Source of the DNA: Achatina immaculata
Taxonomy: Eukaryota > Mollusca > Gastropoda > Stylommatophora > Achatinidae
Direction: 5' to 3'
NCBI GenBank assembly: GCA_009760885.1
Contig: CM019713.1
Span: forward strand, 22,204,427 to 22,268,426
DNA length: 64,000 nucleotides
The notes under the pieces are model-generated. The model was not told where the DNA came from and made no database searches. It saw only the letters and a program-made list of their open reading frames with translations. The position numbers were made by a program, and so were the translations under genes. The first letter of the stretch is position 1. Each line of letters starts with the position of its first letter. This document shows, one piece after another, positions 821 through 52,289 of the stretch.

Positions 821-983
821 CTGCTTGGGAATATTGTTGCCATCTACTCTTGCTACAACAGCTAACACAACAACCAATCTTTGTGATTGTGAATCCAATC
901 TTTGAGAAGCTATCACATGATTGTGAATCAAATATATGTCATACCATACCAGAAAGTAAATGTATGAAAGTGGAAAGGCTGCC

Positions 984-1710
984 ATGAGAGTGAGACAAAT
1001 GAACAGATATAATATAAAGATACTGGGGTTGAGCGAAACACACTGGACAGGAACAGGTAAGCTTACACTAGCAACAGGGGAGACAATCCTTTTTTCAGGT
1101 CGCCAAAACCCAGATGCAACACACTCAGAGGGCGTGGCACTAATGCTATCCACAGAGTCCCAGAGAGCATTGATGAGCTGGGAGGCAGTTAGCTCAAGGA
1201 TTATTACAGCCTGTTTCTCAACAAAGGATAATGTTAAATTGAATATCATCCAGGTATACGCGCCTTTATATGTGGCCTATGCTCTCAAGGGAGTGAAAGG
1301 CGATAATGATGATGATGATACGTGCCAACAAATGATGCACAAGAGGTAGTAAAGGATGAATTCTACAACACATTGCAGGAAATCCTAGGTCAACAAGGCA
1401 ACAAACACATAACATTTCTAATGGGGGACATCAATGCAGAGGTAGGTAAGATCAACACAGGTTATGAGAAAGTAATGGGTCAAAATGGATTAGGAATAAT
1501 GAACAAAAATGGAGAAAGGCTAGCAGATCTATGCGTGCTCAACAACCTTGTCATTGGAGGAAGTATATTTCCACATAAGACTATACACAAAGCCATGTGG
1601 GTATCACCAGATCATGTCACTGAGAACCTGATAGACACATTTGTATCAGCAGAAGCTTTCGCAGAACACTGCAAGATGTCAGAGTGAAACGAGGTGTAGA
1701 TGTAGCTTCT
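984..1710 (+). pseudogene. LINE family A endonuclease domain (broken)
   Basis: Encodes an exonuclease-endonuclease-phosphatase fold. Visible motifs are ILGLSETHWTG (metal-binding Glu), SSRIITACF, the MGDINAEVG box (Asp/Asn), WVSPDH and finally the VASDHHLL motif at about 1702-1724. It would nick target DNA for target-primed reverse transcription. The frame is broken by a 53-bp insertion after VYA and by the repeat expansion at the SDH motif. Not functional. Confidence 0.9.
1265..1317 (+). mobile_element. Minimal 53-bp LINE family A 3' tail insertion
   Basis: Sequence tttatatgtggcctatgctc... followed by (GAT)n is almost the same as the 3' terminus of the host LINE at about 4748-4800. It is flanked by atacgcgcc (1256-1264) and atacgtgcc (1318-1326), a 9-bp duplication with one mismatch. 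It splits the codons of the endonuclease between VYA and PTNDA. This is an extremely 5'-truncated retrotransposition. Confidence 0.85.
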
Positions 1711-1780
1711 GACCACCACCTACTGACCACCACCTACTGACCACCACCTACTGACCACCACCTACTGACCACCACCTACT
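1711..1780. repeat. 14-bp repeat x5 inside the LINE endonuclease
   Basis: Five copies of gaccaccacctact. The unit is the coding of the DHHLL part of the endonuclease catalytic motif, expanded in place and shifting the frame. Confidence 0.95.
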
Positions 1781-1931
1781 GATAGCTAAACTAAGAATGA
1801 AAGTGAAGAAGCACCACAAAACAGATATTGCAAGAAAAAGATACAATATGGTACTGCTGGAAGACCCAGGAATCGCAAAGAACTTTAAACTGAAACTAAG
1901 CAACATATTTCATGTTCTGCAGGAGTTATAT

Positions 1932-2567
1932 TCCACCAGCATGCAGTATAAAATTAAATGGAACTATTCTAAAGCAGGTGCAGAAATTCAAATACCTTGG
2001 AGCAGTAATAACTTCAGATGGGAAATGCAGAACACAAATTAGGAACAGAATAGGCCAAGCAAAGACTGCATTTCAGAGAACGAGAAACATATTAGCTAAC
2101 ACATCTTTATCAATGAATGTTAGAAAACGAGTCCTAAAATGCTATATTGAACCTATCTTGTTATATGGAAGTGAATCATGGACAATAGGCAAGTCTGCAC
2201 AAAAATCATTGAAAGCAGCAGAAATGTGGTTTATTAGAAGAATGTTGTGAATCCCCTGGACAGCAAAAATAACTAATGAAGAATGTATGAGAAGAGCTGG
2301 AGAGACAAAAAACCTTGTCAAAAAGATAAGAGAGAGACAATGTACTTTCATAGGACATGCAATGAGAAGAGGGGGCATTGAAAATATTATAACAGGAAAA
2401 ATAGAAGGAAGAAGATCAAGAGGAAGACCAAGAGAAATGATACTGGACAGTCTGACGGGATGGTGTGAGTGGAGATCACCAACTGAACTGATGGCCTGCA
2501 TGAAGGATCGGGTACTCTAGAGAAGCATAATAGCCAACGCCAGTCGGCACGGCACATGATGATGATG
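1932..2567 (+). mobile_element. Nested 5'-truncated LINE (family A2), 11-bp target-site duplication
   Basis: Encodes only the C-terminal part of a LINE polyprotein: KFKYLGAVITSDGKCRTQI, LLYGSESWTIGKSAQ, CTFIGHAMRRGG, RRSRGRPREMILDSL and a terminal WRSIIANA-like end (here with a stop), then (GAT)n. It is flanked by aggagttatat at 1921-1931 and 2568-2578. It sits between the endonuclease and reverse transcriptase of the outer LINE, whose frame resumes after it. Roughly 97% identical over the part compared to the copy at 19925-20867. Confidence 0.93.
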
Positions 2568-4080
2568 AGGAGTTATATGAAGAAGATACACCAGATGTGA
2601 ACACTGTGTGGAACAGTGCTAAAGAAATGTGGAGCAAATCATGTAAAGAGACAGTTGGATTTAAGAAACCTTAGCACAAGGAGTGGATTGCATTGGAAAC
2701 ACAGAAGAAGATAGACAAAACGACAGAAATGAAAGCAAAAATAAATGACAGTAAAACAAGAGCAGCAAAGTCCTCAGCTGAGATAGAATACAATTTAGCC
2801 CATAAAGAGGTTAGGAAAAGTGTAGAGAAAGACAGACAGGCCTATTTTGATAATATGGCAGGACATGCAGAAGAGGCAGCTGGTAAAAACAATATGAGAG
2901 CTCTGTATGAAATCACCAAGAAGTTGGCAAATAGACCATGTAGGGTAGAAATGCCCATCAAAAACAAGGAACGTAAGGTAATAACTTCAGAAGAAGAACA
3001 GATGCAAAGATGGGTGGAATATTTCAGCAAAATCCTAAATAGGCCAGAACCAAAAGAAACAAAGGACATACCAGCTATCTAGACATCAATGTAGAACCAA
3101 CCAGCAAGGCCGAAATTGAACACGCTGTCTCAGAGTTGAAGAGATATAAGGCACCGGGTTCAGATGGAATTGTAGCAGAAGTGCTCTTAGTGAACAAAGA
3201 AATAACAACAGAAATACTACTCTTACTATTTAGCAGGATTTGGGAAGAAGAGAAGGTCACAGAGGACTGGATGGAGGCTCATCTGATAAAATTCCCAAAG
3301 AAAGGAGATCTATTAGAATGTATGAACTATAGAAGCATCTCCCTGCTCTCAATACCCAGCAAGGTCTTCAGCAGGACTTTGCTAAATAGAATTAAAACAT
3401 CAGTAGATAGTAAACTAAGAGAAGAGCAAGCAGGTTTCAGGGAAGGAAGATCCTGTACTGACCACACTGCTATAATGCAAAGAATAGTAGAGCAGTCAAT
3501 GGAGAGGAATTCTTCACTGTTAGTTACATTCATTGATTATAAGATGGCATTTGCTAGCTTGGATTGTAGAATGCCATGGAAACTACTAGAACACTATGGT
3601 ATCTAAGCCAAGATAAAAAATCTTATAAAGACCATATATGAAGGAACATCTTGTAGAATTGTGCATAGAGGAACTTTCACAGAAAGTTTTAAAGCGGAAA
3701 CAGGCATGCGGCAGGGATGTTTGCTATCACCATTCCTATTTCTTCCGGCAATTGATTGGATCATGAAAACTACCACACAAAGAAAAAGAAATGGGATACA
3801 ATGGACATTGTGGAACCAAATGGAAGATCTTGACTTTGCAGATGATGTGGCACTTTTGGCACACAGTCACACACAAATGCAAAAGAAACTTCAGATCTTA
3901 AGCAGGAATTCAGCTAAACTGGGACTATATATTAACAGACAAAAAACAAAGATAATGAAAAGTAATAGTGCAAGCAATAGCCTCATGGTAACTGAGGGAG
4001 TGCCACTTGAGGAGGTAGAGTATTTCACATATTTAAGCAACATAGTGGATAAATACGGGGGGAACAGAAAAGGATGCTAA
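2568..4080 (+). pseudogene. LINE family A reverse transcriptase (broken)
   Basis: Linker then reverse transcriptase of the outer LINE. Motifs in order: YKAPGSDGIVAE (RT motif 0/1), MNYRSISLLSI, EEQAGFREGRSCTDH, FIDYKMAFASLD, GMRQGCLLSP and LDFADDVALL with the catalytic Asp pair at 3841-3846. Stops at about 2672, after AI (3081) and after the HYGI segment (3604), plus frame changes, show it is dead. The active-site FADD box itself is intact. Confidence 0.92.
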
Positions 4081-5331: not shown

Positions 5332-5487
5332 CTGATTAAAGAATACAACAAATATTAGATGACAAGTTTCTCATCATCTTGTGTGTAAATGGGCATGAAA
5401 TGTATGTAACTTTAGGCTCCTCCATGACTTTTGCAATTAACCACAAATGGCTAATAAATAATCTGCAACCAATAATGGCTTTCATCT

Positions 5488-5693
5488 TCAAATACTCTAA
5501 CGATGGTTACTCAGTCTCATGATATTCATCAAATACTCTAATGATGGTTACTCAGTCTCAAGATATTCATCAAATACTCTAATGATGGTTACTCAGTCTC
5601 ATGATATTCATCAAATACTCTAATGATGGTTACTCAGTCTCATGATATTCATCAAATACTCTAATGATGGTTACTCAGTCTCATGATATTCAT
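5488..5693. repeat. 41-bp minisatellite, ~5 copies
   Basis: Five copies of a 41-bp unit (aatgatggttactcagtctc...), in the intron just upstream of the L2 continuation exon. Confidence 0.95.
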
Positions 5694-7260
5694 TACAGAT
5701 CCTTTACATGTATCTTTCGTAAGTAAGAGACTAAAGTACGTCAGTAACAACTTCATGCTATCAGCTCATTTATTTTAGTTTACTGGATACAGCAAATCCC
5801 TGGCTCACTGCTGATTTCACTTCGTTCTTTATGGACACGACATTTCCTGGCCCAGGATTGTTCTGACCTGCCAAACTTTCCACTATCACACAATTTGCCT
5901 TCATCCCTACAGTTTAGAACATGCTCCAAAGACAAGTACTGCACTTGCTTTGTTAAAATATTGAACTTTCCATATTAAATTATTTGATTTTTTTTTTCAG
6001 TTAACAAACTGCCACAAAGGCTGCTTAAAGTGGATTGTGTGATTTACTAACTGACGAGATGCATTAAGTAAATGAAATACATAACTTTTTAAATAATGTA
6101 AATAGTACAGCTGAATAATTATCTTCTCTAAAGCTAATACATTATAAAGAACTGAAACCAGTCTGTCCACATGCTCTATGAATGAAAGCTAACAGCCTTA
6201 AGTGGCAATTAAGGAAAAAAAAACATGAAGCATTTGCATGTCTTGCAGAAAGTATGCACAAGAATAGAAAGAAAGAAGCAATCAGCAGAAGTAAAGCTTT
6301 AACTAGGCAGACATGAAGCACAAAGTAAAGAATTTTTTCACAATCAAGAAAGAACTACAATGAGCTAACCAAATGCTTTAAAAAAAAAACTGAAAAGAAG
6401 TCCTATCCAAGAAACATCATCTTAATAGCTTGAAGCAACAAACAAAACACAAAAAAAAAAAAAGGCAGTGAGCATTTTTTTCATGTCTTCCTTGTTTAAC
6501 AAGCTACAGCTTCCGATTTTGTTTCTGCAGTAGTAAAAATGAAGTACTATTCATTTATATTCATTCTATGCTCTAATTCTCAAACTGGATCATCTAAAAT
6601 CACAACTGTTAAATATGCTCAACTGAAAAGAGAGGCAGTTTTCTGAAAGAAACAAGATGAAAGATTCTATATAGGACATAAAATTGACGACAATGCCATT
6701 AGTGTACCTGGTTGTGAATGAGAAACTACTGGCATGCATATTGCTGCACAAACAAACATACATGACTCTTAAGGGACTACATCTATGCATGCTTTGTTAC
6801 CAATGCAAAGTGTTTCCATACACAATCTCAGTAGCAGAATGTAGGCCAAATACAAGAACAATATCCCACAGCAAAAGATAGCTGGGACACAAAAACTGTA
6901 CTCCAGGACAAATATTCCACGTCGAACTTCTGGAAGGAAAGTGGTCATGAAACAAGCACTGCATTCATGATTTTTTCTCTTTGAGTAAAGAAAGAAACTG
7001 GAGAAAGATCTTGCCACAAAGGCAGAGAGGCCCTGTGAATTGATGCTATTGATCTAAAGACAGAATAAGAACCAGCAGTGAGGAAAGATGGTGTAAGAAC
7101 AAAAGAGAATGGCTCCTGCAATAAAAAAAATAGTTTGTTGTTACTGATGTTGATTATGTTAGTCTTCCTCTTTTTTTGTTGTTGTCATCATTACTCTTTA
7201 TCTCCTGTGTTTTTACTACTCTCAGACAATTTCAGAGATTTTATCACTAATACATGGACC
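5694..7260. other. Intron, no gene seen
   Basis: AT-rich unique sequence with short A/T runs. No exon-like coding with splice sites recognised on either strand. Confidence 0.5.
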
Positions 7261-7261
7261 T

Positions 7262-8245
7262 GGACAATCTCTCAGTCACAAGATCAGCAGACTATCAGAA
7301 CTATGTCTCTCAGTCACAAGATCAGCAGGCTATCAGAACTATGTCTCTCAGTCACAAGATCAGCAGACTATCAGAACTATGTCTCTCAGTCACAAGATCA
7401 GCAGACTATCAGAACTATGTCTCTCAGTCACAAGATCAGCAGGCTATCAGAACTATGTCTCTCAGTCACAAGATCAGCAGGCTATCAGAACTATGTCTCT
7501 CAGTTACAAGATCAGCAGGCTATCAGAACTATGTCTCTCAGTCACAAGATCAGCAGGCTATCAGAACTATGTCTCTCAGTCACAAGATCAGCAGGCTATC
7601 AGAACTATGTCTCTCAGTCACAAGATCAGCAGGCTATCAGAACTATGTCTCTCAGTTACAAGATCAGCAGGCTATCAGAACTATGTCTCTCAGTCACAAG
7701 ACCAGCAGACTATCAGAACTATGTCTCTCAGTTACAAGATCGCCAGACTATCAGAACTATGTCTCTCAGTTACAAGACCAGCAGACTATCAAGAGAACTA
7801 TGTCTTTCAGTTACAAGATCGCCAGACTATCAAGACAACTATGTCTCTCAATTACAAGATCACCAGACCATCAGTAGAACTACATCTCTCAGTTACAAGA
7901 TCACCAGACAATCAGTAGAACTGTGTCTCTCAGTTACAAGATCAGCAGACTATCAGGAGAACTACATCTCCCAGTTACAAGATCAGCAGACTATCAGGAG
8001 AACTATGTCTTCCAGTTACAAGATCAGCAGACTATCAGGAAAACTATGTCTTCCAGTTACAAGATCAGCAGACTATCAGGAAAACTATGTCTTCCAGTTA
8101 CAAGATCAGCAGACTATCAGGAGAACTACATCTCCCAGTTACAAGATCAGCAGACTATCAGGAAAACTATGTCTTCCAGTTACAAGATCAGCAGACTATC
8201 AGGAAAACTATGTCTTCCAGTTACAAGATCAGCAGACTATAAAAG
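7262..8245. repeat. 38- to 42-bp minisatellite, ~25 copies
   Basis: Array of a unit containing agatcagcagactatcagaa. The first half is nearly homogeneous at 38 bp; from about 7790 units lengthen to 41-42 bp with an extra ag/ga insertion and diverge. Open frames of up to 423 codons result from the repeat rotating through three frames. Confidence 0.95.
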
Positions 8246-8354
8246 ACAATCCCTCACTTACAAGATGTGTAGATTTTCAGAGACATTATGTCAGATACAA
8301 ACCTTCCTTCTCTTGCATTATTTCCTTCATATCTCAACTTTCATTGTAATGTGG

Positions 8355-8412
8355 TCATTAAACATCAGTCCTCAAACATCAGTCCTCAAACATCAGTCCT
8401 CAAACATCAGTC
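8355..8412. repeat. 15-bp repeat, ~4 copies
   Basis: Unit aacatcagtcctcaa, next to the end of the 38/42-bp array. Confidence 0.9.
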
Positions 8413-8686
8413 AAGTACTAGCTTATACTTCAGAAATATAAAGCACTTATACATGACTTGCACTTCATTATCTCCACTGGTCAGATGCCTGACAAGTACA
8501 TAAATATGACACATGGGACCCATGACTGTCTATGACTTATGTCATAATATACTGATGTAAAATACCCGACAGTCAAGAGAACAGAGTGAATGTAATAAAT
8601 GCATAGTTTATTTTGTGAAGCTGACAGCCGTGCTTCATATTATCAACAGTGACATACACTACTGTAACCTAACAACTTCTTCTCAC

Positions 8687-8798
8687 CTGTTGAACGATGA
8701 TCTTACTATGCGCAAGTTTCCTTCAATAGAGGTGCATCCTTCAAACTGTTTGATATTGGCAAAGTTGAGAAATTCTGGAGGTTCTAAACCCTTGCACG
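8687..8798 (-). CDS. EGFR: EGFR alternative L2 exon B
   Basis: 112-bp exon (2 nt + 36 codons + 2 nt). It encodes CKGLEPPEFLNFANI, KQFEGCTSIEGNLRIVRSSFN and the first two bases of Arg, the beginning of receptor L2. Compared with vertebrate EGFR, the GCTSIEGNL core is closer than in exon A. Acceptor ttctgccctcccag has a good pyrimidine tract; donor caacag|gtgaga. Skipping this exon when A is used keeps the frame; inclusion after A leads to a stop about 20 codons in. Exon A and B are 2.2 kb apart. Confidence 0.92.
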
Positions 8799-11009
8799 CT
8801 GGGAGGGCAGAAAGATGCTCGAGTAAACATGCATGCACAACAGCTAGCACAATATCCACAGAATGAACAAGCCTAGAACTGACAACAGAACTGTTGGCTG
8901 GCACTACAACATTCCTGGCAAACTTCAACATTCTGTATATAATATTCATAGTGAATCTAGGTTATCGTTATCATTTTTCTCATGATATCTATTCACTGAC
9001 ATTCTGCAAACCTTATTTAATAAAATGGAATGACGTATTGACACAAATGATGTGCCACTAGAAATCAGAAAAAAAAGTCTATTTTTTACTTATACAAGTT
9101 AAATATTTGTTCTGTTACACGTTTTGTAAGATGATAAAGCAAGGAAAAGTAAAGCTGAAATGAAAGAAACTTGCTGTTTCAAAACTAATGTTTCAGACTA
9201 GGGCATCTATATCTTGTCTACATAATTTAAAGTGGCACCAGCACTTTCAAGGTGAAAGTCAGCACGTGTATGTGCAGGTGTGTGTGTGCTGATGCTGTTG
9301 TCATGCCATGACCTGTTTCTACAAGATATATATATCATCAGTATTTTTTGTTACAGAAACTAAAACTTGGAATTAATAACAGTTTTCATTCAACAAATGA
9401 CAGACATGCTGCTCTTGAATCACGACAATTAAAGATCAAGACAAGCATTCCATTCACTTTCAAATTGTGTCTAGGCTTTCTCATGGTCTGCTGTCAGCTC
9501 ACTGAATGACCACAGTTTTAAAAATAGTTGAAAAAAAAAAAACTGGCACTAATATAAGTAATGTACAACAGGAAAACATCATCAACATAAACAGCAGCAA
9601 ATGTTAGAACACTTCAAGATGCAAGAGATCACACAGATTTTCTAAATCACAGTTATAGAAATTAATGCATCAAATGCAAGCAAGTACAGAAAAGTCACCA
9701 GAAAATGAGAAACTACATTCTACAGCTCCTGTGTGGTGATTCTCAGTTCACGTCTCGTGTCTGTCCAGACTGATCCGGTCCAGGCGATAAATAAAAACAT
9801 AAAACTGGCCAGCTCTACTTTCAGCTGGACAAAGCATGTACATATCTTATTAAGAAAACAAACATGTCTGGGATCCTGGCATACAATACAGCTATTTCAC
9901 TCTTGAACTAAGCTGTGCTTCTACAACACTCCTGCTTCCTTGTAATTCTTTGAGAAAACAAACACATAAAATTCCACTGACTCTTGTACAGAACATGGGA
10001 AATACTGACACCTGGACAGTTGTTATGGATATTCTGGAGCATGAACTCTTAGTGTTTTAAAATAACTGATACTGAATGTACGCAGGCATATAAACTAATG
10101 TAGTACACTATCTATTCTGTCAATGTGTTAAACATCACAAAAATTATCACTTTCTTCCTACTCCAAAACATGCACAATTTTCTTATAACAAGAAAATGAT
10201 CCAACACTTGAGCTAAAGTTCACAGCTTCCTTCAGACTGGAAGTTATGTTTGCATCCCACAACTTTAGTGCAAGATCGGTCATTCTTTTTACCAATTATG
10301 TGAGCAACGTATGAACATTATGTCTGTATTTCCTGTGCCATTCACAGGCAATGCTACAATAACACAGGAGAGGGCTATTGTCAAGTTGAAAAAAAACCAT
10401 CAACAAAATAAACAAACAAGACTGCTACTAAGCAACACATAACAGACGATATACATAGTGCATGACTTAATGGACTATATACATAGTGCACAACTCAATG
10501 GGCTCAAGACACTGTTCAGTTATGACAAAGAATATCACAATGTCATTCAGACAGATCATCTCAATACAATGGCAAGCATTCCAAATCAAATGCTCTCTAG
10601 TCTTCTAGTAGTTGTAGATAACTTAGCCAGCAGTCAGCAATCATGTATTACCAAGAGATTTTCATTTTAAATTTTCAAATGTTCCAATGTTATCATTTGG
10701 AGTATAAGTTTTAAAACATTCTCAAAGAATTATTTTTTCTATTTCTTTGAAATAAATTGACATTATTTAAGCTAGATATTATGTATACATACTTAAGCAC
10801 CAATTCAGAATACTGTAAATAACTCCATATCTGATATAAAAACAGGTATGACTCTGTTGCCCATGTACAAAACTGTTTCTACATAAATGTAAACAGCACT
10901 TTTCTGTCTCCAATAAACATTTACAGAGAAATTTTCAAATTAGTTTGATCAATATGAAACATCTCTTGGTATGAAACCAAATGACTGCAGACTGCTGAAC
11001 TACACTCAC
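8799..11009. other. Intron between alternative exons, no gene seen
   Basis: Unique AT-rich sequence separating the two alternative L2 exons. I looked for a third L2-start exon (a CT..GNL-like core with AG/GT borders) and saw none. A short duplication of about 32 bp lies near 10445-10500. Confidence 0.5.
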
Positions 11010-11121
11010 CTTTCGAACGTTGCTCTGATAATTTTCAGATTACCCTGCACTAACGTACAGTCTTGAAACTGGTGAATATTTTCTGAGCTCACGTAGTCTA
11101 CCGCATTGTTACCATCGCAAA
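11010..11121 (-). CDS. EGFR: EGFR alternative L2 exon A
   Basis: 112-bp exon (2 nt + 36 codons + 2 nt). It encodes CDGNNAVDYVSSENI, HQFQDCTLVQGNLKIIRATFE and the first two bases of Arg, matching the EGFR L2 start ([26 protein letters not shown]). Acceptor aaaatgaaaattag has a poor pyrimidine tract; donor gaaag|gtgagt is good. It is a homologue of the exon at 8687-8798, with the same length and phases and 14 of 36 residues identical. It lies 5' of that exon in the gene. Splicing to 5170-5331 gives Arg-Asp-Asp. Using both exons in one mRNA shifts the frame. Confidence 0.88.
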
Positions 11122-11679
11122 CTAATTTTCATTTTCCATTTCAGGTGGTTTGTTGCATGTTTATAAAACCATTTATATGGTTTATTAATGCATTTCATTT
11201 CCACGAGGCCGTATCAAAAGTGGGAATGAAAAATAAAATACCAAAGACATACGTGATGTGGAGAGGTTTGTATGTGTATGTATGGGGGTTTGATTTAGGG
11301 CCCGTGAAAAGGGGGTATGAGGGAGAGAAAGAAAGAAAAAATAATTATAGGTTAAAAACAGAAAACAAATTCCTGAAATTAACAACATGAAAAATTTGAA
11401 ATGACCAATGGACTAATACCTAATTATGCTTCCTTGATCATGGAAAATGGGTCATAGCCAATATTAAATAACATTGCTGACATGTCATGTTGAAATAATT
11501 TCTCACAAAAATACATCATCACAATTAAGTATTTTTGCTATGTTAAAAGAAAAGTCATTATGCATGACAGAAATCTAAAAATACAACACAGGATGATAAA
11601 GAACAATTATTCTGAAAGATGTCCTTTGATAATTGAAACAAAGATAACAATGATGGCAGGCATAGCAGATTATGTAGTT
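11122..11679. other. Intron, no feature seen
   Basis: AT-rich unique sequence upstream of alternative exon A. The stretch next to the exon's acceptor is purine/A-rich on the minus strand rather than pyrimidine-rich. Confidence 0.5.
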
Positions 11680-11926
11680 TATAATAAACTCTTTACACTC
11701 TTCAGAGGAGAGAAGACAGTTATAATCAACTTTTTACACTCTTCAAGGGAGATAAGACAGTTATAATCAACTCTTTACACTCTTCAAGGGAGAGAAGACA
11801 GTTATAATCAATTCTTTAAACTCTTCAAGGGAGAGAAGACAGTTATGATCAACTCTTTATACTCTTCAAGGGAGAGAAGACAGTTATAATCAACTCTTTA
11901 CACTCTTCAAGGGAGAGAAGACAGTA
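11680..11926. repeat. 41-bp minisatellite, ~6 copies
   Basis: Unit ataatcaactctttacactc... with variants; six copies. Confidence 0.95.
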
Positions 11927-12044
11927 TCCAGGATATCTGTGCCAGCCTATGACTTCTTATCATTATCTGAAACTTTTGCTAGTTCAAGATCACATCCTAC
12001 AACACACTGTCCAGAAACTCATCTCAGACCAAGCTGTACAAGCT

Positions 12045-19624: not shown

Positions 19625-19729
19625 TTTTTGGGCAGGGTCCATTGCATGGCTGACATGTTCTCTGGTCAACGGAGTGCTTGCCTTCAGAACACTGACGGAC
19701 ACATGCACCGAGATCTTGGAGAAGGAAGC
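19625..19729 (-). CDS. EGFR: EGFR exon, last part of cysteine-rich domain I
   Basis: 105-bp exon (2 nt + 34 codons + 1 nt). It encodes FLLQDLGACVRQCSEGKHSV and CQPCNGPCPK, matching EGFR '[20 protein letters not shown] ... KCKKCEGPCRK'. Acceptor gttttcttgtgtag. The donor, cccaaaaa|gtcagt, is non-consensus at +3, the weakest donor seen in the gene. It is the common upstream partner of the two alternative L2 exons: its last base A makes Thr-Cys-Lys with the exon at 8687 or Ile-Cys-Asp with the exon at 11010. Confidence 0.93.
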
Positions 19730-21729: not shown

Positions 21730-21871
21730 CTGGACATTCTTTCACACAAAGAGAGCCAAAAGCATATTTTGGATTTTGGTTTGGAACAATTATCATTTTC
21801 TCTTTATCATAGACTTTTTCCTTTGGGCAAGATGGCTCACAACCATTGTCATCTTTGAAGGTTCTACAGGC
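21730..21871 (-). CDS. EGFR: EGFR exon, cysteine-rich module 3
   Basis: 142-bp exon (47 codons + 1 nt). It encodes ACRTFKDDNGCEPSCPK ... NPKYAFGSLCVKECPG, matching EGFR 'VCRKFRDEATCKDTCP ... GKYSFGATCVKKCPR'. This part of the domain carries the dimerisation arm region in EGFR-type receptors: the Tyr of YDKE and the KYAFG segment are in the right place. Acceptor gtttcattccag, donor tgtccag|gtagat, a weaker donor than its neighbours. A 33-bp minisatellite starts about 20 bp beyond the donor, and a Tc1-like transposon lies 83 bp upstream of the acceptor. Confidence 0.95.
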
Positions 21872-24014: not shown

Positions 24015-24690
24015 TCTGAATTGTTCAAATAACTGATGTTTTATTTGATGGGACAAGGACCTACAAAACAACCATTGTTCACATAACTGTTATTTTATTT
24101 GATAGAACATTCATTCATTCATTTGCATGCCCCTTGCAGAACTTTGCCTCCCTAAAAGCACTCCTATAGGCCTCTTGGTTGTGAGCAAGATGACCTGCTG
24201 CTGATGCACCCATTTGCAGATCATCAATGATGTCTTGTAGCCATCTTCACCTTGGTCTTCCTCTCTTTCTTTTTCCCATTGTGTATCCTTCCTATAGTCT
24301 TCTCTAGATTATCATGACGTTTAATGTGTCCAAAATATTTAAGTTTTCTTTGCTTAATCCTCTTTACTAGCCTGCCTTCTTCAATATTAAGATCTTGATG
24401 GAACAAGGACCTACAAAATAATCATTGTTCACATAACTGATGTTTAATCTGTCAGGACAAAGACCCACAAAACAATCATTTTTCACATAACTGATATTTT
24501 ATTTGATGAGACAAGGACTTATAAAACAATCATTGTTCACATAATTGATGTTTTATCTGATAGGACAATAAATGATGTTTTATATGATAGGACAATAACT
24601 TACAAAACAATACTTGTTCACATAACTGATGTTTTATCTGATGGGACAATAACTGATGTTTTATCTGATGGGACAAGGACTTACAAAACA
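24015..24690. repeat. Degenerate ~54- to 60-bp minisatellite at an exon donor
   Basis: Copies of cttacaaaacaatcattgtt...cataactgatgttttat..., split by a LINE insertion (24110-24394). The unit includes the last bases and GT donor of the 24685-24806 exon (attgttttgtaagt on the minus strand). Some copies keep GTAAG, others have lost it. Confidence 0.85.
24110..24394 (-). mobile_element. LINE family B 3' fragment in the minisatellite
   Basis: Encodes the terminal LVKRIKQRKLKYFGHIKRHD-like segment and the 3' end with (GAAT)n. Bounded by ttgatagaaca (24099-24109) and ttgatggaaca (24395-24405), an 11-bp duplication of the repeat unit with one mismatch. Confidence 0.88.
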
Positions 24691-24806
24691 ATCAGTTTTC
24701 TTTGGACCAGTACATCCTCCAGCACATTCTTGATGACAGCATTCATATGGTTTACTTCCGTAACATCTGCCAACACAGTTTGAATGACACACATTCCCAT
24801 AATTCA
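24685..24806 (-). CDS. EGFR: EGFR exon, furin-like cysteine-rich module 2
   Basis: 122-bp exon (2 nt + 40 codons). It encodes [16 protein letters not shown] followed by [19 protein letters not shown] and CF, among the most conserved stretches of the ErbB cysteine-rich domain I (EGFR '[37 protein letters not shown]'). Acceptor tttcttcacag, donor tgtttt|gtaagt, phase 0. Joined to the next exon it reads DCF|ACRTFKDD. Its last bases and donor are copied in the degenerate ~54-bp array next to it (24015-24690). An ATG upstream of the acceptor is intronic and not a start. Confidence 0.97.
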
Positions 24807-25004: not shown

Positions 25005-26110
25005 TACATCCTTCTTGTGCCGTTAAACGTCACATAGGGCTTGCATAGCTGTTTGCCAAGTTTTCCTGTTCTCTGTGAGTCTTTCAGATTCATCACGGGA
25101 TGTTACGGCCACTAAACTGGCTTCTCTTAACAATGTCCTTTTTAGAGTTTAACGCAGTCTACCTCTTTTTCTTCTGTCTGTTGTGCTCCACTTTATAGCT
25201 TGTTTTGATATTCTCTGATAGTTTTTTTCTCATCACATGGCTTACATATCTCCATCTTCTTTTTCTGATCAGATTGTTGTTTGCTCATCTGTCTTATCTC
25301 TGTGTTGTTCTTAAATTCATTCCACTTTATACCAAGTATTTTCCTTAGGCATTAGTTTTCAAAAGAGTCTAATTTCTTTAATTTCTTGTCTATTTCTTTA
25401 GTTGATTTCCAGCATCCGCATGCATAAATGAGAGTGGATATCACATTTGAATTGAATAATCTTAACTTGGTTTTTGTGCTTATAACTTTTGAATGCCATA
25501 TGTTCTCAAGATTTTTTAAAGATAATGCTGCTTTTGCAATTCTAATTCTAACTTCCTTCCTGGTGTCACCATCCTGGTCTATGTAGCTGCCAAGGTATGC
25601 AAATTGGTTTACTTCATTAACAGCTGTTCCTTCTACATATATTTCCCTTCTTGATTAATGAGAAATTTCATTATTTTTGTTTTGTCCTTGTTAATTACAA
25701 GACCTATTTTGTTAGCCAAGGAAGACAGGGAATTTGTTTTTTTCTGCGTTGATTTCACAAGGCCTTTGATAAGAGTTATGTCATCAGCAAAATCAAGATC
25801 TTCTATTTGGGTCCCATGTACCCAATCAATGCCGGTTTTACCTGTGCAGCATTTTTTCATTATGAAGTTTACAGCAATTCCAAAAAGCAAGGGAGATAAT
25901 ATACATCCTTGTTTCACACAAGTTTCAATCTGAAACCATTTGCTCAATCCTTTTTCTGTGTTTTCTGCACAAACATATCCATTGTAGAGATCTCTAATGA
26001 TGCTGACATTTTTAGATGGTATTCCATATAGTCTTAAAATTCTCCACAATGAATCTCTGTGTATGCTATCAAATGCCTTTTAAAAGTCTATAAAGTTCAG
26101 GAATTCTGCA
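25005..26110 (-). mobile_element. LINE fragment (family D): reverse transcriptase and C-terminus
   Basis: On the minus strand: KAFDSIHRDSLWRIL, LYGIPSKNVSIIRDLYNG, CVKQGCILSPLLFGIAVNFI and IEDLDFADDITLIKGL with an intact FADD box. It continues to NKDKTKIMKFL, FAYLGSYIDQDGDTRKEVRI and a diverged C-terminus with stops. 5'-truncated. Confidence 0.88.
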
Positions 26111-28874: not shown

Positions 28875-29407
28875 AATCTACTAGAAAATAAGACTTACAC
28901 TTCTAATCTACTACAAAATAAGACTTACGTTTCTAATCTACCACAAAATAAGACTTACGTTTCTAATCTACCACAAAATAAGACTTACGTTTCTAATCTA
29001 CCACAAAATAAGACTTACGTTTCTAATCTACCACAAAATAAGACTTACGTTTCTGATCTACCACAAAATAAGACTTACGTTTCTGATCTACCACAAAATA
29101 AGACTTACGTTTCTGATCTACCACAAAATAAGACTTACGTTTCTGATCTACCACAAAATAAGACTTACGTTTCTGATCTACCACAAAATAAGACTTACGT
29201 TTCTGATCTACCACAAAATAAGGCTTACGTTTCTGATCTACCACAAAATAAGACTTACGTTTCTATCTACCACAAAATAAGACTTACGTTTCTGATCTAC
29301 CACAAAATAAGACTTACGTTTCTGATCTACCACAAAATAAGACTTACGTTTCTAATCTACCACAAAATAAGACTTACGTTTCTAATCTACCACAAAATAA
29401 GACTTAC
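28875..29407. repeat. 30-bp minisatellite carrying copies of an EGFR splice donor
   Basis: About 18 copies of taatctaccacaaaataaga + cttacgtttc. On the minus strand each unit reads agaaac|gtaagt, the same six exon bases and donor as the real exon end at 29408. One unit has a 1-bp deletion at about 29264. Near-exon units have an in-frame TAG; more distant ones read open (RKSYFVVDQK). Confidence 0.96.
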
Positions 29408-29491
29408 GTTTCTGACACATATCTGGGCCCTCTCCCCAGCAGTGCTTCCTCTGAGTGATATTATTTAAACACTCGTCATGACATTCACCAC
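29408..29491 (-). CDS. EGFR: EGFR exon, first furin-like cysteine-rich module
   Basis: 84-bp exon (2 nt + 27 codons + 1 nt). It encodes GECHDECLNN ... HCWGEGPDMCQK, matching EGFR '[24 protein letters not shown]'. Acceptor gatattcag, donor tcagaaac|gtaagt. The sequence after the donor is tandemly amplified: a 30-bp unit carrying the last six exon bases and the GTAAGT donor is repeated down to 28875. The true donor is taken as the one nearest the exon, because only it gives an in-frame Leu junction to the exon at 24685-24806. The first two intervening repeats carry an in-frame TAG. Confidence 0.94.
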
Positions 29492-32798: not shown

Positions 32799-32939
32799 AG
32801 GGCCGCGTGGTTGCAGCTTTACTGTCATGTACAAACTGCACGGGCGGTTTTGTGTTGGGGTTAATGTCTGCCCATTCAATGGTGTTCTCAAAGCACAGCA
32901 CGTCATTGTTCTGGAAGAACACCTTCCCAGCCAAGATCT
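32799..32939 (-). CDS. EGFR: EGFR exon, end of L1 domain
   Basis: 141-bp exon (2 nt + 46 codons + 1 nt). It encodes EILAGKVFFQNNDVLCFENTI, then EWADINPN and a variable tail ending TTRPC. It corresponds to EGFR '[25 protein letters not shown]', the last L1 turn with its conserved Cys and Trp. Acceptor gatggtgttgacag, donor cggccct|gtaagt. The preceding intron (about 7.7 kb) holds the huge 27-bp array and several other minisatellites. The split Cys codon completed by the next exon starts the cysteine-rich region. Confidence 0.94.
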
Positions 32940-33324: not shown

Positions 33325-36300
33325 AATGAGTAAGATTTCTCCATCTATAACAGTGAGTAAGATTTCTCCATCTATAACAGTGAGTAAGATTTCTCCATCT
33401 ATAAGAATGAGTAAGATTTCTCCATCTATAACAGCGAGTAAGATTTCTCAATCTATAAGAGTGAGTAAGATTTCTCAATCTATAACAGTGAGTAAGATTT
33501 CTCAATTCTATAAGAGCGAGTAAGATTTCTCAATCTATAACAGTGAGTAAGATTTCTCAATTCTATAAGAGCAAGTAAGATTTCTCAATTCTATAAGAGC
33601 GAGTAAGATTTCTCAATTCTATAAGAGCAAATAAGATTTCTAAACCTATAAGAGCAAGTAAGATTTCTCAATCTATAAGAGCAAATAAGATTTCTCAACC
33701 TATAAGAGCAAGTAAGATTTCTCAATCTATAAGAGCAAGTAAGATTTCTCCACCTATAAGAGCAAGTAAGATTTCTCAATCTATAAGAGCAAGTAAGATT
33801 TCTCCACCTATAAGAGCAAGTAAGATTTCTCAATCTATAAGAGCAAGTAAGATTTCTCCACCTATAAGAGCAAGTAAGATTTCTCCACCTATAAGAGCAA
33901 ATAAGATTTCTCAACCTATAAGAGCAAGTAAGATTTCTCAATCTATAAGAGCAAATAAGATTTCTCCACCTATAAGAGCAAATAAGATTTCTCCACCTAT
34001 AAGAGCAAATAAGATTTCTCCACCTATAAGAGCAAGTAAGATTTCTCAATCTATAAGAGCAAGTAAGATTTCTCAATCTATAAGAGCAAGTAAGATTTCT
34101 CAATCTATAAGAGCAAGTAAGATTTCTCAATCTATAAGAGCAAGTAAGATTTCTCAATCTGTAACAGTGAGTAAGATTTCTCAATTCTATAAGAGCGAGT
34201 AAGATTTCTCAATCTATAACAGTGAGTAAGATTTCTCAATTCTATAAGAGCAAGTAAGATTTCTCAATTCTATAAGAGCGAGTAAGATTTCTCAATTCTA
34301 TAAGAGCAAATAAGATTTCTAAACCTATAAGAGCAAGTAAGATTTCTCAATCTATAAGAGCAAATAAGATTTCTCAACCTATAAGAGCAAGTAAGATTTC
34401 TCAATCTATAAGAGCAAGTAAGATTTCTCCACCTATAAGAGCAAGTAAGATTTCTCAATCTATAAGAGCAAGTAAGATTTCTCCACCTATAAGAGCAAGT
34501 AAGATTTCTCAATCTATAAGAGCAAGTAAGATTTCTCCACCTATAAGAGCAAGTAAGATTTCTCCACCTATAAGAGCAAATAAGATTTCTCAACCTATAA
34601 GAGCAAGTAAGATTTCTCAATCTATAAGAGCAAATAAGATTTCTCCACCTATAAGAGCAAATAAGATTTCTCCACCTATAAGAGCAAATAAGATTTCTCC
34701 ACCTATAAGAGCAAGTAAGATTTCTCAATCTATAAGAGCAAGTAAGATTTCTCAATCTATAAGAGCAAGTAAGATTTCTCAATCTATAAGAGCAAGTAAG
34801 ATTTCTCAATCTATAAGAGCAAGTAAGATTTCTCAATCTGTAAGAGCAAGTAAGATTTCTCAATCTATAAGAGCAAGTAAGATTTCTCAATCTATAAGAG
34901 CAAGTAAGATTTCTCCACCTATAAGAGCAAGTAAGATTTCTCCACCTATAAGAGCAAGTAAGATTTCTCCACCTATAAGAGCAAGTAAGATTTCTCAATC
35001 TATAAGAGCAAGTAAGATTTCTCCACCTATAAGAGCAAGTAAGATTTCTCAATCTATAATAGCAAGCAAGATTTCTCCACCTATAAGAGCAAGTAAGATT
35101 TCTCAATCTATAAGAGCAAGTAAGATTTCTCCACCTATAAGAGCAAGTAAGATTTCTCAATCTATAAGAGCAAGTAAGATTTCTCCACCTATAAGAGCAA
35201 GTAAGATTTCTCAATCTATAAGAGCACGTAAGATTTCTCCACCTATAAGAGCAAGTAAGATTTCTCAACCTATAAGAGCAAGTAAGATTTCTCCACCTAT
35301 AAGAGCAAGTAAGATTTCTCAATCTATAAGAGCAAGTAAGATTTCTCCACCTATAAGAGCAAGTAAGATTTCTCAATCTATAAGAGCACGTAAGATTTCT
35401 CAATCTATAAGAGCAAATAAGATTTCTCAACCTATAAGAGCACGTAAGATTTCTCCACCTATAAGAGCAAGTAAGATTTCTCCACCTATAAGAGCAAGTA
35501 AGATTTCTCCACCTATAAGAGCAAGTAAGATTTCTCAATCTATAATAGCAAGTAAGATTTCTCAATCTATAAGAGCAAGTAAGATTTCTCAATCTGTAAG
35601 AGCAAGTAAGATTTCTCAATCTATAAGAGCAAGTAATATTTCTCAATCTATAAGAGCAAGTAAGATTTCTCAATCTATAAGAGCAAGTAAGATTTCTCAA
35701 TCTATAAGAGCAAGTAAGATTTCTCAATCTATAAGAGCAAGTAAGATTTCTCAATCTATAAGAGCAAGTAAGATTTCTCCACCTATAAGAGCAAGTAAGA
35801 TTTCTCAATCTATAAGAGCAAGTAAGATTTCTCAATCTATAAGAGCAAGTAAGATTTCTCAATCTATAAGAGCAAGTAAGATTTCTCCACCTATAAGAGC
35901 AAGTAAGATTTCTCCACCTATAAGAGCAAGTAAGATTTCTCCACCTATAAGAGCAAGTAAGATTTCTCCACCTATAAGAGCAAGTAAGATTTCTCAATCT
36001 ATAAGAGCAAGTAAGATTTCTCAATCTATAAGAGCACGTAAGATTTCTCCACCTATAAGAGCAAGTAAGATTTCTCAATCTATAAGAGCAAGTAAGATTT
36101 CTCCACCTATAAGAGCAAGTAAGATTTCTCCACCTATAAGAGCAAGTAAGATTTCTCCACCTATAAGAGCAAGTAAGATTTCTCCACCTATAAGAGCAAG
36201 TAAGATTTCTCAATCTATAAGAGCAAGTAAGATTTCTCCACCTATAAGAGCAAGTAAGATTTCTCAATCTATAAGAGCAAGTAAGATTTCTCCACCTATA

Positions 36301-36456
36301 AGAGCAAGTAAGATTTCTCAATCTATAAGAGCAAGTAAGATTTCTCAATCTATAAGAGCAAGTAAGATTTCTCCACCTATAAGAGCAAGTAAGATTTCTC
36401 AATCTATAAGAGCATGTAAGATTTCTCCACCTATAAGAGCAAGTAAGATTTCTTCA
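33325..36456. repeat. 27-bp minisatellite, ~116 copies, with higher-order duplication
   Basis: Unit aagatttctcaatctataag + agcaagt. Main variants are 'caatct' and 'ccacct' types. About 25 units (~679 bp) at 33500-34180 are repeated nearly exactly at 34180-34859, including four 28-bp variants. On the EGFR-sense strand each unit contains ttacttgctcttatag, an acceptor-like pyrimidine tract plus AG; in ccacct-type units it is followed by GTGGAG. The minus frame is open for 710 codons. Confidence 0.97.
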
Positions 36457-36807
36457 TCTAACAACAGATGATGCTTCCTGGTGAATATTCACTGCAGCCT
36501 ACATCAAGGTGAAGGCTGTCCAACTGGCTGTCTGAAGTATTTCAAACTTTAAAATATTATTTGTAAACATAACATGAAGGGAGTAAAACACTAAAATTGC
36601 TAGTTACAAACTCTACTGCCGTAAAATGATGTAACTTACACTAACATATGCACAGAGGTGAGAGGTGGTTTCTCCTGCAAGAACAAGTCATTTCTGAAAC
36701 TACAGAGATATGCCTGCATTTGACATGAGCGTCTCAGACAGGATATAATGTTTCTGATATATCTTGTGGGATGCAACCATCTATGACTCAGAAAAAGATG
36801 TGCATAA
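36457..36807. other. Intron, no feature seen
   Basis: Unique sequence following the 27-bp array. Confidence 0.5.
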
Positions 36808-41637: not shown

Positions 41638-41817
41638 CTGTAACCTCTTTTATCTGGGACAGAAAACTCATATCATAATCCGTGTCACCGCTGTCCAGGA
41701 AGACTATCTCCAGGTTTCCAACCACGTACGTGCAGTCAGTGTAAGCGTCCTTGTACTTCTGATACCTGGAGTTCGAGTCTCCATTGTTAGCGAAGCCAGT
41801 AGATGTACCGTAACATG
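41638..41817 (-). CDS. EGFR: EGFR exon, start of receptor L1 domain
   Basis: 180-bp exon (2 nt + 59 codons + 1 nt). The translation begins CYGTSTGF and ends SFLSQIKEVT, matching the start of EGFR L1 (the VCQGTSNKL ... YDLSFLKTIQEVAG region), with the typical NLEI strand as VVGNLEI. The acceptor on the minus strand is tttctgtcgccag and the donor is gttacag|gtaagt. It joins in frame to the exon at 40647-40829 through a split Gly codon. The acceptor side runs directly into a 33-bp tandem array (41818-42090) that repeats the sequence just upstream of the splice site. The upstream exon must end in phase 1 and was not found in the remaining 22 kb. Confidence 0.93.
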
Positions 41818-44429: not shown

Positions 44430-46352
44430 TCCAGATGCTTTTCTGTCAAAGATTACGTCTACACTCCCTGTGGTTTTAGATGCTTTTCTGTCAAAGATTA
44501 CGTCTACACTCCCTGTGCTTTTAGATGCTTTTCTGTCAAAGATTACGTCTACACTCCCTGTGGTTTTAGATGCTTTTCTGTCAAAAGATTACGTCTACAC
44601 TCCCTGTGGTTTTAGATGCTTTTCTGTCAAAGATTACGTCTACACTCCCTGTGGTTTTAGATGCTTTTCTGTCAAAGATTACGTCTACACTCCCTGTGGT
44701 TTTAGATGCTTTTCTGTCAAAGATTACGTCTACATTCCCTGTGGTTTTAGATGCTTTTCTGTCAAAGATTACGTCTACACTCCCTGTGGTTTTAGATGCT
44801 TTTCTGTCAAAGATTACGTCTACACTCCCTGTGGTTTTAGATGCTTTTCTGTCAAAGATTACGTCTACACTCCCTGTGGTTTTAGATGCTTTTCTGTCAA
44901 AAGATTACGTCTACACTCCCTGTGGTTTTAGATGCTTTTCTGTCAAAGATTACGTCTACATTCCCTGTGGTTTTAGATGCTTTTCTGTCAAAGATTACGT
45001 CTACATTCCCTGTGGTTTTAGATGCTTTTCTGTCAAAGATTACGTCTACACTCCCTGTGGTTTTAGATGCTTTTCTGTCAAAGATTACGTCTACATTCCC
45101 TGTGGTTTTAGATGCTTTTCTGTCAAAGATTACGTCTACACTCCCTGTGGTTTTAGATGCTTTTCTGTCAAAGATTACGTCTACACTCCCTGTGGTTTTA
45201 GATGCTTTTCTGTCAAAGATTACGTCTACACTCCCTGTGGTTTTAGATGCTTTTCTGTCAAAAGATTACGTCTACACTCCCTGTGGTTTTAGATGCTTTT
45301 CTGTCAAAGATTACGTCTACATTCCCTGTGGTTTTAGATGCTTTTCTGTCAAAGATTACGTCTACATTCCCTGTGGTTTTAGATGCTTTTCTGTCAAAGA
45401 TTACGTCTACACTCCCTGTGGTTTTAGATGCTTTTCTGTCAACGATTACGTCTACACTCCCTGTGGTTTTAGATGCTTTTCTGTCAAAGATTACGTCTAC
45501 ACTCCCTGTGGTTTTAGATGCTTTTCTGTCAAAGATTACGTCTACACTCCCTGTGGTTTTAGATGCTTTTCTGTCAAAGATTACGTCTACACTCCCTGTG
45601 GTTTTAGACGCTTTTCTGTCAAAGATTACGTCTACACTCCCTGTGGTTTTAGACGCTTTTCTGTCAAAGATTACGTCTACACTCCCTGTGGTTTTAGACG
45701 CTTTTCTGTCAAAGATTACGTCTACACTCCCTGTGGTTTTAGACGCTTTTCTGTCAAAGATTACGTCTACACTCCCTGTGGTTTTAGACGCTTTTCTGTC
45801 AACGATTACGTCTACACTCCCTGTGGTTTTAGACGCTTTTCTGTCAAAGATTACGTCTACACTCTCTGTGGTTTTAGACGCTTTTCTGTCAAAGATTACG
45901 TCTACACTCTCTGTGGTTTTAGACGCTTTTCTGTCAAAGATTACGTCTACACTCCCTGTGGTTTTAGACGCTTTTCTGTCAAAGATTACGTCTACACTCC
46001 CTGTGGTTTTAGATGCTTTTCTGTCAAAGATTACGTCTACACTCCCTGTGGTTTTAGATGCTTTTCTGTCAAAGATTACGTCTACACTCCCTGTGGTTTT
46101 AGATGCTTTTCTGTCAAAGATTACGTCTACACTCCCTGTGGTTTTAGATGCTTTTCTGTCAAAGATTACGTCTACACTCCCTGTGGTTTTAGATGCTTTT
46201 CTGTCAAAGATTACGTCTACACTCCCTGTGGTTTTAGATGCTTTTCTGTCAAAGATTACGTCTACACTCCCTGTGGTTTTAGATGCTTTTCTGTCAAAGA
46301 TTACGTCTACACTCCCTGTGGTTTTAGACGCTTTTCTGTCAAAGATTACGTT
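44430..46352. repeat. 45-bp minisatellite, ~43 copies
   Basis: Unit gatgcttttctgtcaaagat...; 15 codons, so long frames are open on both strands. Three single-base A insertions (at about 44583, 44900, 45261) shift the plus frames, at intervals of about 317 and 361 bp, suggesting block duplication of about seven to eight units. A 'gacgc' subtype is clustered at 45607-45980. Confidence 0.97.
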
Positions 46353-46689
46353 TAGACTCGTTGTGGGTCCCTCCCACTCCCAACAAAAAAAAAAAAAACA
46401 ACAACAAAGCAACTCTCAAGTTGTGTAAATGACAAAGTCCAGCGCTGAAAACTGTTGAACCTTACAGCCTAGAACTTCCATCTGTGCTTGATCAGTTCAG
46501 TTTATAACACCTTCCTAGTTCTTCCAGCAAAGTTCTGTTCACTAACAGCAAGCCTTGCGGTCACCGTCTCTTACCTGTGTCATTATATATCAGCTGGATA
46601 TTGTGTAAGTCTCATCTTGCACTTGCAGCTTTGGGTTATTCTGCATTATTAGGATACTTTCCCTGTGACATGTGTGTTTACAATATACA
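46353..46689. other. Unique spacer, no gene seen
   Basis: Contains a poly-A run at 46386-46400. A gacacag|gtaaga donor-like site on the minus strand at about 46570-46583 has no recognisable exon in front of it. Confidence 0.4.
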
Positions 46690-47440: not shown

Positions 47441-47793
47441 CAAATAACATGTTTCTAGGTGGTTCACTAACATCCTGTACTGAATGTAATCTTTGTTGGT
47501 GACCAGCCTGGCTGATCTACAAGATTAGTTATGGGGGAGAAGGTAAACTAATTATGACACTGTCTGAGCTGGTGAATACAAACTGACAGTACAAGAGATA
47601 CAAGAACAGACAGAGAAGGAACGTACACTGGCAGGCAGTCGGACACGCAGACTACAATGGTAAATTGATATACACGGACAAAAAGACATGGACAGGAAGA
47701 CAGATTTTTTAAAAACATTGACAGTCTGAGCGAAAAAAAAAACAAAATATTGACACTCGGACAAGTTTAACAGACAAATCAGCTGAACCTGGG

Positions 47794-48112
47794 TCAGTCA
47801 GTCATTTGCATGTCCCTCGCGGAACTTTGCCTCTCTAACAGCTCTCCTGTAGGCCTCTCAGTCAGTCATTTGCATGTCCCTCGCGGAACTTTGCCTCCCT
47901 AACAGCACTCCTGTAGGCCTCTCAGTCAGTCATTTGCATGTCCCTTGCGGAACTTTGCCTCCCTAACAGCACTCCTGTAGGCCTCTCAGTCAGTCATTTG
48001 CATGTCCCTTGCGGAACTTTGCCTCCCTAACAGCACTCCTGTAGGCCTCTCAGTCAGTCATTTGCATGTCCCTCGCGGAACTTTGCCTCCCTAACAGCAC
48101 TCCTGTAGGCTT
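47794..48112. repeat. ~63-bp repeat x5 of a LINE 3' end
   Basis: Five copies of gtcagtcatttgcatgtccc..., which is the 3' terminal sequence of LINE family B. Elsewhere in the window this sequence occurs once per element. Confidence 0.93.
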
Positions 48113-48620
48113 CTCAGTCTGAGCAAGATGGCCTGCTACTGATGCATCCATATGCAGAGCATCAACGATGTCTTGCAGCCATCTTCGCCTTGGTCTTCCT
48201 CTCTTTCTTTTTCCCATAACGTACCCTTCCAAGACGGTCATCTCTAGATTATCATGACGTTTAATGTGTCCAAAATATTTAAGTTTTCTCTCTTTAATCC
48301 TCTTTACTAGCCAGCCTTCTTGTAGTATGGATATATTTGTTCTTTTTTGTGTCCATGATATCTGAAGAACTCTTCTGTAGCATTTACATTCAAAGGCATT
48401 TATGTGTTTCTCATATGTTTTGTTAAATGTCCAGGAGAATGCTGCAATGGGAAAGATGCATGCCCTTAAAAATCTTATTTTTGTAGTTCTGTCTGCTCCT
48501 CTCCACAGATTCTTTAGTTGTTTTACTTTCTGAAGAGCGGTAGATGTCCCGCTTTTAATTCTCCTCATTGTATCTCCATTATTAGTTAGCTGTGATCCTG
48601 GGAAACCTGACGTTTTTCTA
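47797..48620 (-). mobile_element. LINE family B 3' fragment (copy 1)
   Basis: The minus strand encodes MRRIKSGTSTALQKVKQLKN, LWRGADRTTKIRFLRACIFP, NAFECKCYRRVLQISW, EGWLVKRIKERKLKYFGHIK and KRKRGRPRRRWLQDIVDAL, the C-terminus after a reverse transcriptase. An internal deletion around SWTFNKTYEKH relative to the 58.7-kb copy (YACETWTLNKTAEKH) is visible. The last ~63 bp are repeated five times (47794-48112). Confidence 0.92.
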
Positions 48621-48774
48621 GCCTACCTTCTCTGATGTGGTGAGAAAATCCTGACTAAGAACGGCCACCGATTATGTTCCACAAGCTCTCGATGTTGTCA
48701 CCATCGCTAAATTCCACTTTTACCAGCTGAACAAGATATTCAGGAAGAGAAAGAAGAGGGCAGACCACATTCCT

Positions 48775-49428
48775 CAGATGTTACAACCTCACCACAAAAA
48801 AACCGAAGTCTGCTTCCTCAGATGTTACAACCTCAACAGAAAAAAACCGAAGTCTGCTTCCTCAGATGTTACAACCTCAACATAAAAAACCGAAGTCTGC
48901 TTCCTCAGATGTTACAACCTCAACACAAAAAAAAACGAAGTCTGCTTCCTCAGATATTACAACCTCAACACCAAAAAACGGACGTCTACTTCCTCAGATG
49001 TTACAACCTCAACACAAAAAAAACCAAAGTCTGCTTCCTCAGATGTTACAACCTCAACATAAAAAACCGAAGTCTGCTTCCTCAGATATTACAACCTCAA
49101 CACAAAACACTGAAGTCTGCTTCCTCAGATATTACAACCTCAACACAAAACAGTGAAGTCTGCCTCCTCAGATATTACAACCTCAACACAAAACACTGGA
49201 GTCTGCCTCCTCAGATATTACAACCTAACACAAAACACTGAGGTCTGCTTCCTCAGATATTACAACCTCAACACAAAACACTGAAGTCTGCCTCCTCAGA
49301 TATTACAACCTAACACAAAACACTGAGGTCTGCCTCCTCAGATATTACAACCTCAACACAAAACAGTGAAGTCTGCCTCCTCAGATATTACAACCTCAAC
49401 ACAAAACACTGAAGTCTGCCTCCTCAGA
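48775..49428. repeat. 43-bp minisatellite, ~15 copies
   Basis: Unit tattacaacctcaacacaaa...; the left copies have aaaaaacc instead of aacactg and tgttac instead of tattac. Confidence 0.95.
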
Positions 49429-52110: not shown

Positions 52111-52289
52111 GAGTCTGTTTATGGAAATTCGAGACAGACATGACAGAAGAAAGATGGTCAGTGTAAAAACGGTAATAAAATACTTTCTTCGAGCCACTCA
52201 AACCGGAAGTGTGGACACAAATGGCTGTCACTTGGGCAAAAAGACTCATAACGAACATCTATGATTACGGAGATTTGCTGACATAATGG
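52111..52289. other. Unique spacer
   Basis: No gene seen; starts inside the last repeat unit. Confidence 0.4.

Follow-up and report, generated by a model that had tools for sequence, protein, structure and literature searches.

Can a single snail EGFR gene build two versions of its ligand-binding domain by choosing between two exons? The question arises from a 64,000-nucleotide (nt) stretch of Achatina immaculata DNA (assembly GCA_009760885.1, contig CM019713.1, positions 22,204,427 to 22,268,426; the whole stretch is called the window here, with positions counted from its first letter), the minus strand of which carries the beginning of an EGFR gene. Two of its exons, A and B, encode homologous versions of the start of the L2 domain (domain III), and a preliminary description of this DNA had read them as mutually exclusive. 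Our analysis supports that interpretation, and we consider it likely that both exons are functional and are used in a mutually exclusive way in the EGFR of a heterobranch gastropod.

The EGFR gene of the window

Between 41817 and 5170 there are ten ectodomain exons (Table 1) for L1, the cysteine-rich CR1 and the beginning of L2, all with AG/GT borders and with phases that agree between neighbours. The gene runs past the low end of the window, and its visible part consists of ectodomain exons only; kinase domains are present in its relatives P0122 to P0126. Transcripts assembled with either A or B contain the Pfam receptor L domain (PF01030, two stretches) and the furin-like domain (PF00757) above cut-off. 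In a PDB search both isoforms matched ErbB receptors, with Drosophila EGFR (3i2t) as the best match to each (98.8 bits for the A isoform and 101.2 bits for the B isoform). The window gene thus has the L1-CR1-L2 ectodomain of an ErbB/EGFR receptor, and the earlier assignment of the two exons to the start of L2 holds. In a quick tree of the ectodomain built without the L2-start exon (46 rows, 370 columns), the window gene belonged to a supported set of seven rows together with two Bradybaena proteins, Lymnaea, Biomphalaria, Bulinus and one further row, a set that we take to be heterobranch gastropods. Its ectodomain is 70% identical to that of the nearer Bradybaena protein.

Table 1 Features of the EGFR gene on the minus strand of the window
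Feature	Position	Strand	Basis
EGFR exon, L1 start	41638..41817	-	exon assembly, phase check
EGFR exon, L1	40647..40829	-	exon assembly, phase check
EGFR exon, L1 end	32799..32939	-	exon assembly, phase check
EGFR exon, CR1	29408..29491	-	exon assembly, phase check
EGFR exon, CR1	24685..24806	-	exon assembly, phase check
EGFR exon, CR1	21730..21871	-	exon assembly, phase check
EGFR exon, CR1 end; upstream exon common to the A/B pair	19625..19729	-	exon assembly
TTTTTAAC, candidate distant branch point of A (A at 11352, -231)	11351..11358	-	prediction
AG-free zone upstream of exon A	11124..11372	-	AG scan
23-nt pyrimidine run at the far end of the AG-free zone	11319..11341	-	read from sequence
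Exon A, first version of L2 start, 112 nt	11010..11121	-	exon assembly, homology, mollusc comparison
Exon B, second (gastropod-type) version of L2 start, 112 nt	8687..8798	-	exon assembly, homology, mollusc comparison
EGFR exon D, L2; downstream exon common to A/B; carries the Asp355-aligned residue	5170..5331	-	exon assembly, alignment

Either exon fits the reading frame, and both or neither breaks it

The coordinates given for A and B are exact, and each exon is 112 nt long. Each is directly preceded by AG and followed by a donor, GTGAGT for A and GTGAGA for B. Both are entered after one codon base and left after two: the final base of exon 19729-19625 opens the codon that each of them completes, and each ends in AG, which forms an Arg codon with the G of exon 5331-5170. 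The two exons are separated by an intron of 2,211 nt. When recomputed, their homology agreed with the preliminary count of 14 identities in 36 complete codons (15 of 38 with the two split codons included), and the ungapped BLOSUM62 score was 88, compared with a best score of 20 among 20,000 shuffles of A.

Reconstruction of the frame showed that transcripts containing A only or B only remain open throughout the assembled ectodomain. When both exons are included, the assembled frame meets a stop at nt 1125, which lies within B some 55 nt short of the B/D junction; when both are skipped, the stop comes at nt 999, within exon D. These observations confirm the either/or exon pair of the preliminary description, coordinates included. 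They are also the features of mutually exclusive exons, an already known kind of alternative exon: tandem homologous exons of one phase type, the same flanking exons fitting each, and a reading frame broken by both or by neither.

The stop in the double-inclusion transcript could be read in another way, with A serving mainly as an off switch or as the means to a shortened receptor, such that A+B messages stop after CR1 and are either degraded or yield a secreted L1-CR1 fragment. The position of the stop within B would suit such a role. However, a poison exon needs neither conserved L2 sequence nor an exact phase fit to the downstream exon, and A has both, which makes this alternative very improbable.

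A tblastn search of the window revealed no third copy of the L2-start exon and, at the thresholds used, no second copy of any other EGFR exon. This result bears on the possibility that A belongs to a paralogue of this EGFR gene and was placed in the intron by an assembly error, for which the two EGFR proteins of Bradybaena (P0122 and P0123) and the abundance of tandem repeats in the window might be cited. With no other EGFR exon doubled at those thresholds, and with A standing in the right order and phase within one intron, we regard such an error as extremely improbable.

Exon A appears to have been under constraint

The preliminary description had named loss of constraint in one exon, together with absence of the pair in all relatives, as a ground for abandoning the idea of a functional pair; codon positions and neutral simulations both argue for constraint on A. 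Identities between A and B at codon positions 1, 2 and 3 number 21/37, 28/38 and 13/37, so that third positions are near random and second positions have been kept. Out of 38 residues, A has on average 16.0 and B 17.2 identities to 21 non-gastropod molluscs, with a range of 11.3-16.9 for nine other gastropod exons. In 20,000 simulations in which B drifted neutrally until it was as distant as A is from B, and which presuppose that A derives from a B-like exon, the mean was 5.6 and the maximum 12.4 mollusc identities; the frame stayed open in 9.5% of runs, and no run reached the mollusc identity of A with an open frame. Exon A also keeps its open frame, both cysteines and its GTGAGT donor. This sequence evidence argues against A being a long-decayed copy and, together with the splice-site layout described below, shows past constraint, although a recent loss of use is compatible with it as well.

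The 3' splice site of exon A

The acceptors of the two exons are organised differently. The pyrimidine fraction in the scored stretch before A is 0.21, versus 0.47-0.74 at the other nine acceptors. The AG-free stretch upstream of A measures 251 nt, compared with 19-120 nt at the other nine, and AG-to-AG gaps of this length occur twice among 4,825 on the minus strand. The second of these gaps, like three on the plus strand, overlaps tandem repeats, and the zone before A does not. Within the zone AG occurs 0 times and GA 7 times, with 7.6 of each expected, so the depletion is specific to AG; of 100,000 base shuffles of the zone, 7 lacked any AG.

The organisation of this zone is the one described for exons with distant branch points: an AG-free interval of at least 100 nt whose far end carries a branch-point-like site and a pyrimidine tract. 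The candidate site is TTTTTAAC, and the 25 nt that follow it are 84% pyrimidine. Closer to the exon, between -197 and -43 in the zone, the branch-point motif is matched more loosely at eight places, and the tracts following these are poorer. The acceptor of exon A thus has an unusual but known layout, and the exon is probably recognised via the predicted branch point some 230 nt upstream. In a study of human genes, exons with AG-free zones of at least 100 nt were more often alternatively spliced, and exons with distant branch points included mutually exclusive exons of tropomyosin and actinin (PMC1431707). Two Rbfox-like TGCATG sites stand 39 and 35 nt before B; we note them only as a lead and set them aside as evidence, the motif being too common (23 on the strand).

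Comparison with other molluscs

Database searches (the best 120 of 623 matches, the best 120 of 808 matches and the A-centred query described below) yielded 199 proteins, and 51 relatives were aligned over the L2-start exon. This set comprises named molluscs, other lophotrochozoans, two hemichordates and selected rows without species name; named vertebrates, arthropods, the Mytilus rows P0007, P0008 and P0033 and other nameless rows were omitted, and six rows that looked arthropod-like by eye were dropped from the trees. P0125, one of nine gastropods, was assigned by its pairing with Lymnaea in the tree, and nameless rows also account for four of the 21 non-gastropod molluscs. The database holds one representative per 90% cluster, in which an isoform differing by one exon may be hidden.

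Among the 42 non-gastropod relatives, 25 are nearer A, 14 are nearer B and 3 tie. At the 23 positions at which A and B differ, the majority letter of gastropods is found in B 11 times and in A never, and that of non-gastropod molluscs in B 6 times and in A 3 times. By these sequence comparisons B is the gastropod-type exon and A is without gastropod features, which an old duplication would fit. Dating of the duplication by an exon tree failed: with 38 columns, none of three clade tests was rejected (p-AU, approximately unbiased test, 0.458 for A+B, 0.417 for gastropods+B and 0.5 for gastropods+A+B), keeping A with B cost 2.0 log units, and we claim no age for the pair.

Biomphalaria glabrata offers a possible second case. 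Its EGFR-like isoform X1 (P0139) shares 73% identity with Bulinus across the flanks but 35% within the L2-start exon, a departure of -3.8 standard deviations from the relation between flanks and exon fitted on 36 other pairs; exon A, when paired with the nine gastropods, departs from this relation by -2.4 to -4.0 standard deviations. The exon of P0139 diverges from that of Bulinus as though another exon were used, and the discordance may be taken as a weak to moderate hint of a second exon in that species. A separate observation concerns Mytilus trossulus, in which P0001, annotated as EGFR-like, repeats the L1-CR1 block and is possibly a fused or mis-annotated tandem copy.

Several observations weigh against a functional pair. 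The 3' splice site of A is almost without a local pyrimidine tract, and the AG-free zone was noticed on reading and tested statistically only afterwards. All nine gastropod proteins are nearer B, with a margin of 25-47 points in eight cases and of 10 in Biomphalaria. The preliminary description had proposed a search of related genomes for a paired L2-start exon. Among the proteins compared here the Biomphalaria discordance is the one indirect sign of such a pair: none of the nine gastropod proteins, as 90% cluster representatives, contains an A-like exon, and a short A-centred protein query, with 3 matches of 4 candidates (one Drosophila and two nameless rows), returned no A-type fragment. The exon tree does not reject a young A+B pair at the p-AU given above, its branch is long for A (1.39, versus 0.25 for B), and the identity of A to B (15/38) lies inside the neutral runs (mean 10.1, maximum 19). 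The exon of Biomphalaria, for its part, is not A-like (24%), an annotation fault is possible there, and its departures from the fitted relation when paired with the eight others, A and Bulinus apart, are only -1.0 to -2.6 standard deviations.

The missing local tract, the closeness of all nine gastropod proteins to B, the outcome of the A-centred search and the long branch of A would also favour the view of A as a relict, with B the only exon now spliced in and A an old alternative to it that recently went out of use. Set against this are the intact frame, cysteines and donor, a similarity to other molluscs that is on a par with ordinary exons and beyond all 20,000 neutral runs, and an AG-free zone whose branch-point-like site is still intact. 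The intact features of A and its mollusc similarity exclude long neglect but not recent loss, and we judge a relict to be unlikely.

Residues at the ligand site

The L2-start exon aligns with residues 312-354 of human EGFR. The preliminary description had held that the two versions differ near the ligand site. The positions aligned with human H346, V350 and R353 fall in the exon; Asp355 and site 3 fall in shared exons outside A and B. In human numbering, A and B carry, among other differences, K and R at 346, A and S at 350, and E and N at 353, and both have R at 349. In a simulation study, V350 and R353 are among the residues that form hydrogen bonds with ligand (PMC3554757), and another study places P349 and R353 at the site 2 interface (PMC2834686). 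It is plausible from these alignments that the A/B swap would alter ligand preference, the area concerned being small.

Other features of the window

Tandem arrays at 28876-29415 and 24487-24692 copy 5' splice sites of the EGFR gene. For exon 29491-29408, 16 further copies of the 22-nt exon/intron junction (at most 3 mismatches) follow in the next 1500 nt at a spacing of about 30 nt, and for exon 24806-24685 there are 4 such copies; the other 8 exons tested gave no recurrence. The minisatellite load is very high, with 92 Tandem Repeats Finder rows, some of them overlapping and many inside EGFR introns (for example 33329-36460, 44433-46366, 50655-52117 and 57189-58298). A stretch at about 47557-51126 is duplicated, with copies 1885 bases apart and identical open reading frames (48050-48568 = 49935-50453; 48822-49241 = 50707-51126), and represents either a recent duplication or an assembly artefact. 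Open reading frames at 960-4080, 25633-26049, 58703-59416 and 60376-61095 resemble, by eye, fragments of reverse-transcriptase elements.

Discussion

In the arrangement that we propose, each productive transcript would take one of the two exons, and the resulting receptors would be identical except for the first 38 residues of L2. Exon B, with its ordinary 3' splice site, would probably provide the default form. Recognition of A through a distant branch point, a strong pyrimidine tract and an AG-free interval would leave room for regulators to switch A on or off, and the choice would then lie between the strong site of B and the distant branch point of A together with regulators acting in the zone. 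Double inclusion or skipping would shift the frame, and such messages would presumably be cleared by nonsense-mediated decay; the surest barrier may be the reading frame itself, combined with decay of the faulty transcripts.

Other routes to mutual exclusion were considered. With 2,211 nt of intron between A and B, and with about 8.3 kilobases (kb) between the upstream 5' splice site and the predicted branch point, steric blocking is unlikely. Incompatibility of U2 and U12 splice sites was rejected, all exon borders being GT-AG (U12 motifs were judged by eye only). A search of 5332-12000 for inverted repeats as candidates for competing RNA pairing gave 24 pairs, none of them outstanding.

The closest functional parallel is the mutually exclusive IIIb/IIIc pair of FGFR. 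In both cases a receptor tyrosine kinase has tandem homologous exons for part of its ligand-binding domain, with one used per transcript; FGFR swaps half an immunoglobulin domain, whereas the snail EGFR would swap the N-terminal 38 residues of an L domain. Our best reading, analogous to FGFR, is a mutually exclusive pair that would change the edge of ligand site 2. Drosophila EGFR belongs to the same receptor family and is the best solved-structure match to both forms; its isoforms differ by their first exons and are not known to differ in L2.

For the splice-site anatomy, the nearest likenesses are exons of alpha-tropomyosin and alpha-actinin (PMC1431707), which share with A a long AG-free zone with a distal branch-point-like site and pyrimidine tract, a weak local 3' site and membership of a homologous exon pair. 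The snail gene differs in that the upstream 5' splice site lies about 8.3 kb from a branch point that is itself predicted. Exons Ab and 3 of U2AF1 and other duplicated exons likewise differ in the organisation of branch point and pyrimidine tract, one member being less favourable (PMC5224494); that system concerns another gene, and its regulation was studied by experiment. In the open-access literature, within the best-ranked part of longer lists, we found no report of a mutually exclusive pair in an ErbB ligand-binding domain.

More broadly, and as a tentative proposal, gastropods, or at least heterobranchs, may possess an old splice switch in EGFR L2 that is governed by a distant branch point, provides two ligand preferences and arose as a device like FGFR IIIb/IIIc but independently of it. 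The pair is a candidate invertebrate case of distant branch points controlling duplicated exons. In invertebrates, several EGF-like ligands are commonly served by a small number of ErbB receptors. If both exons are used, one gene would give the snail two EGFR forms, and a splice switch within the ligand-binding domain would be a further way to widen the reading of ligands without gene duplication.
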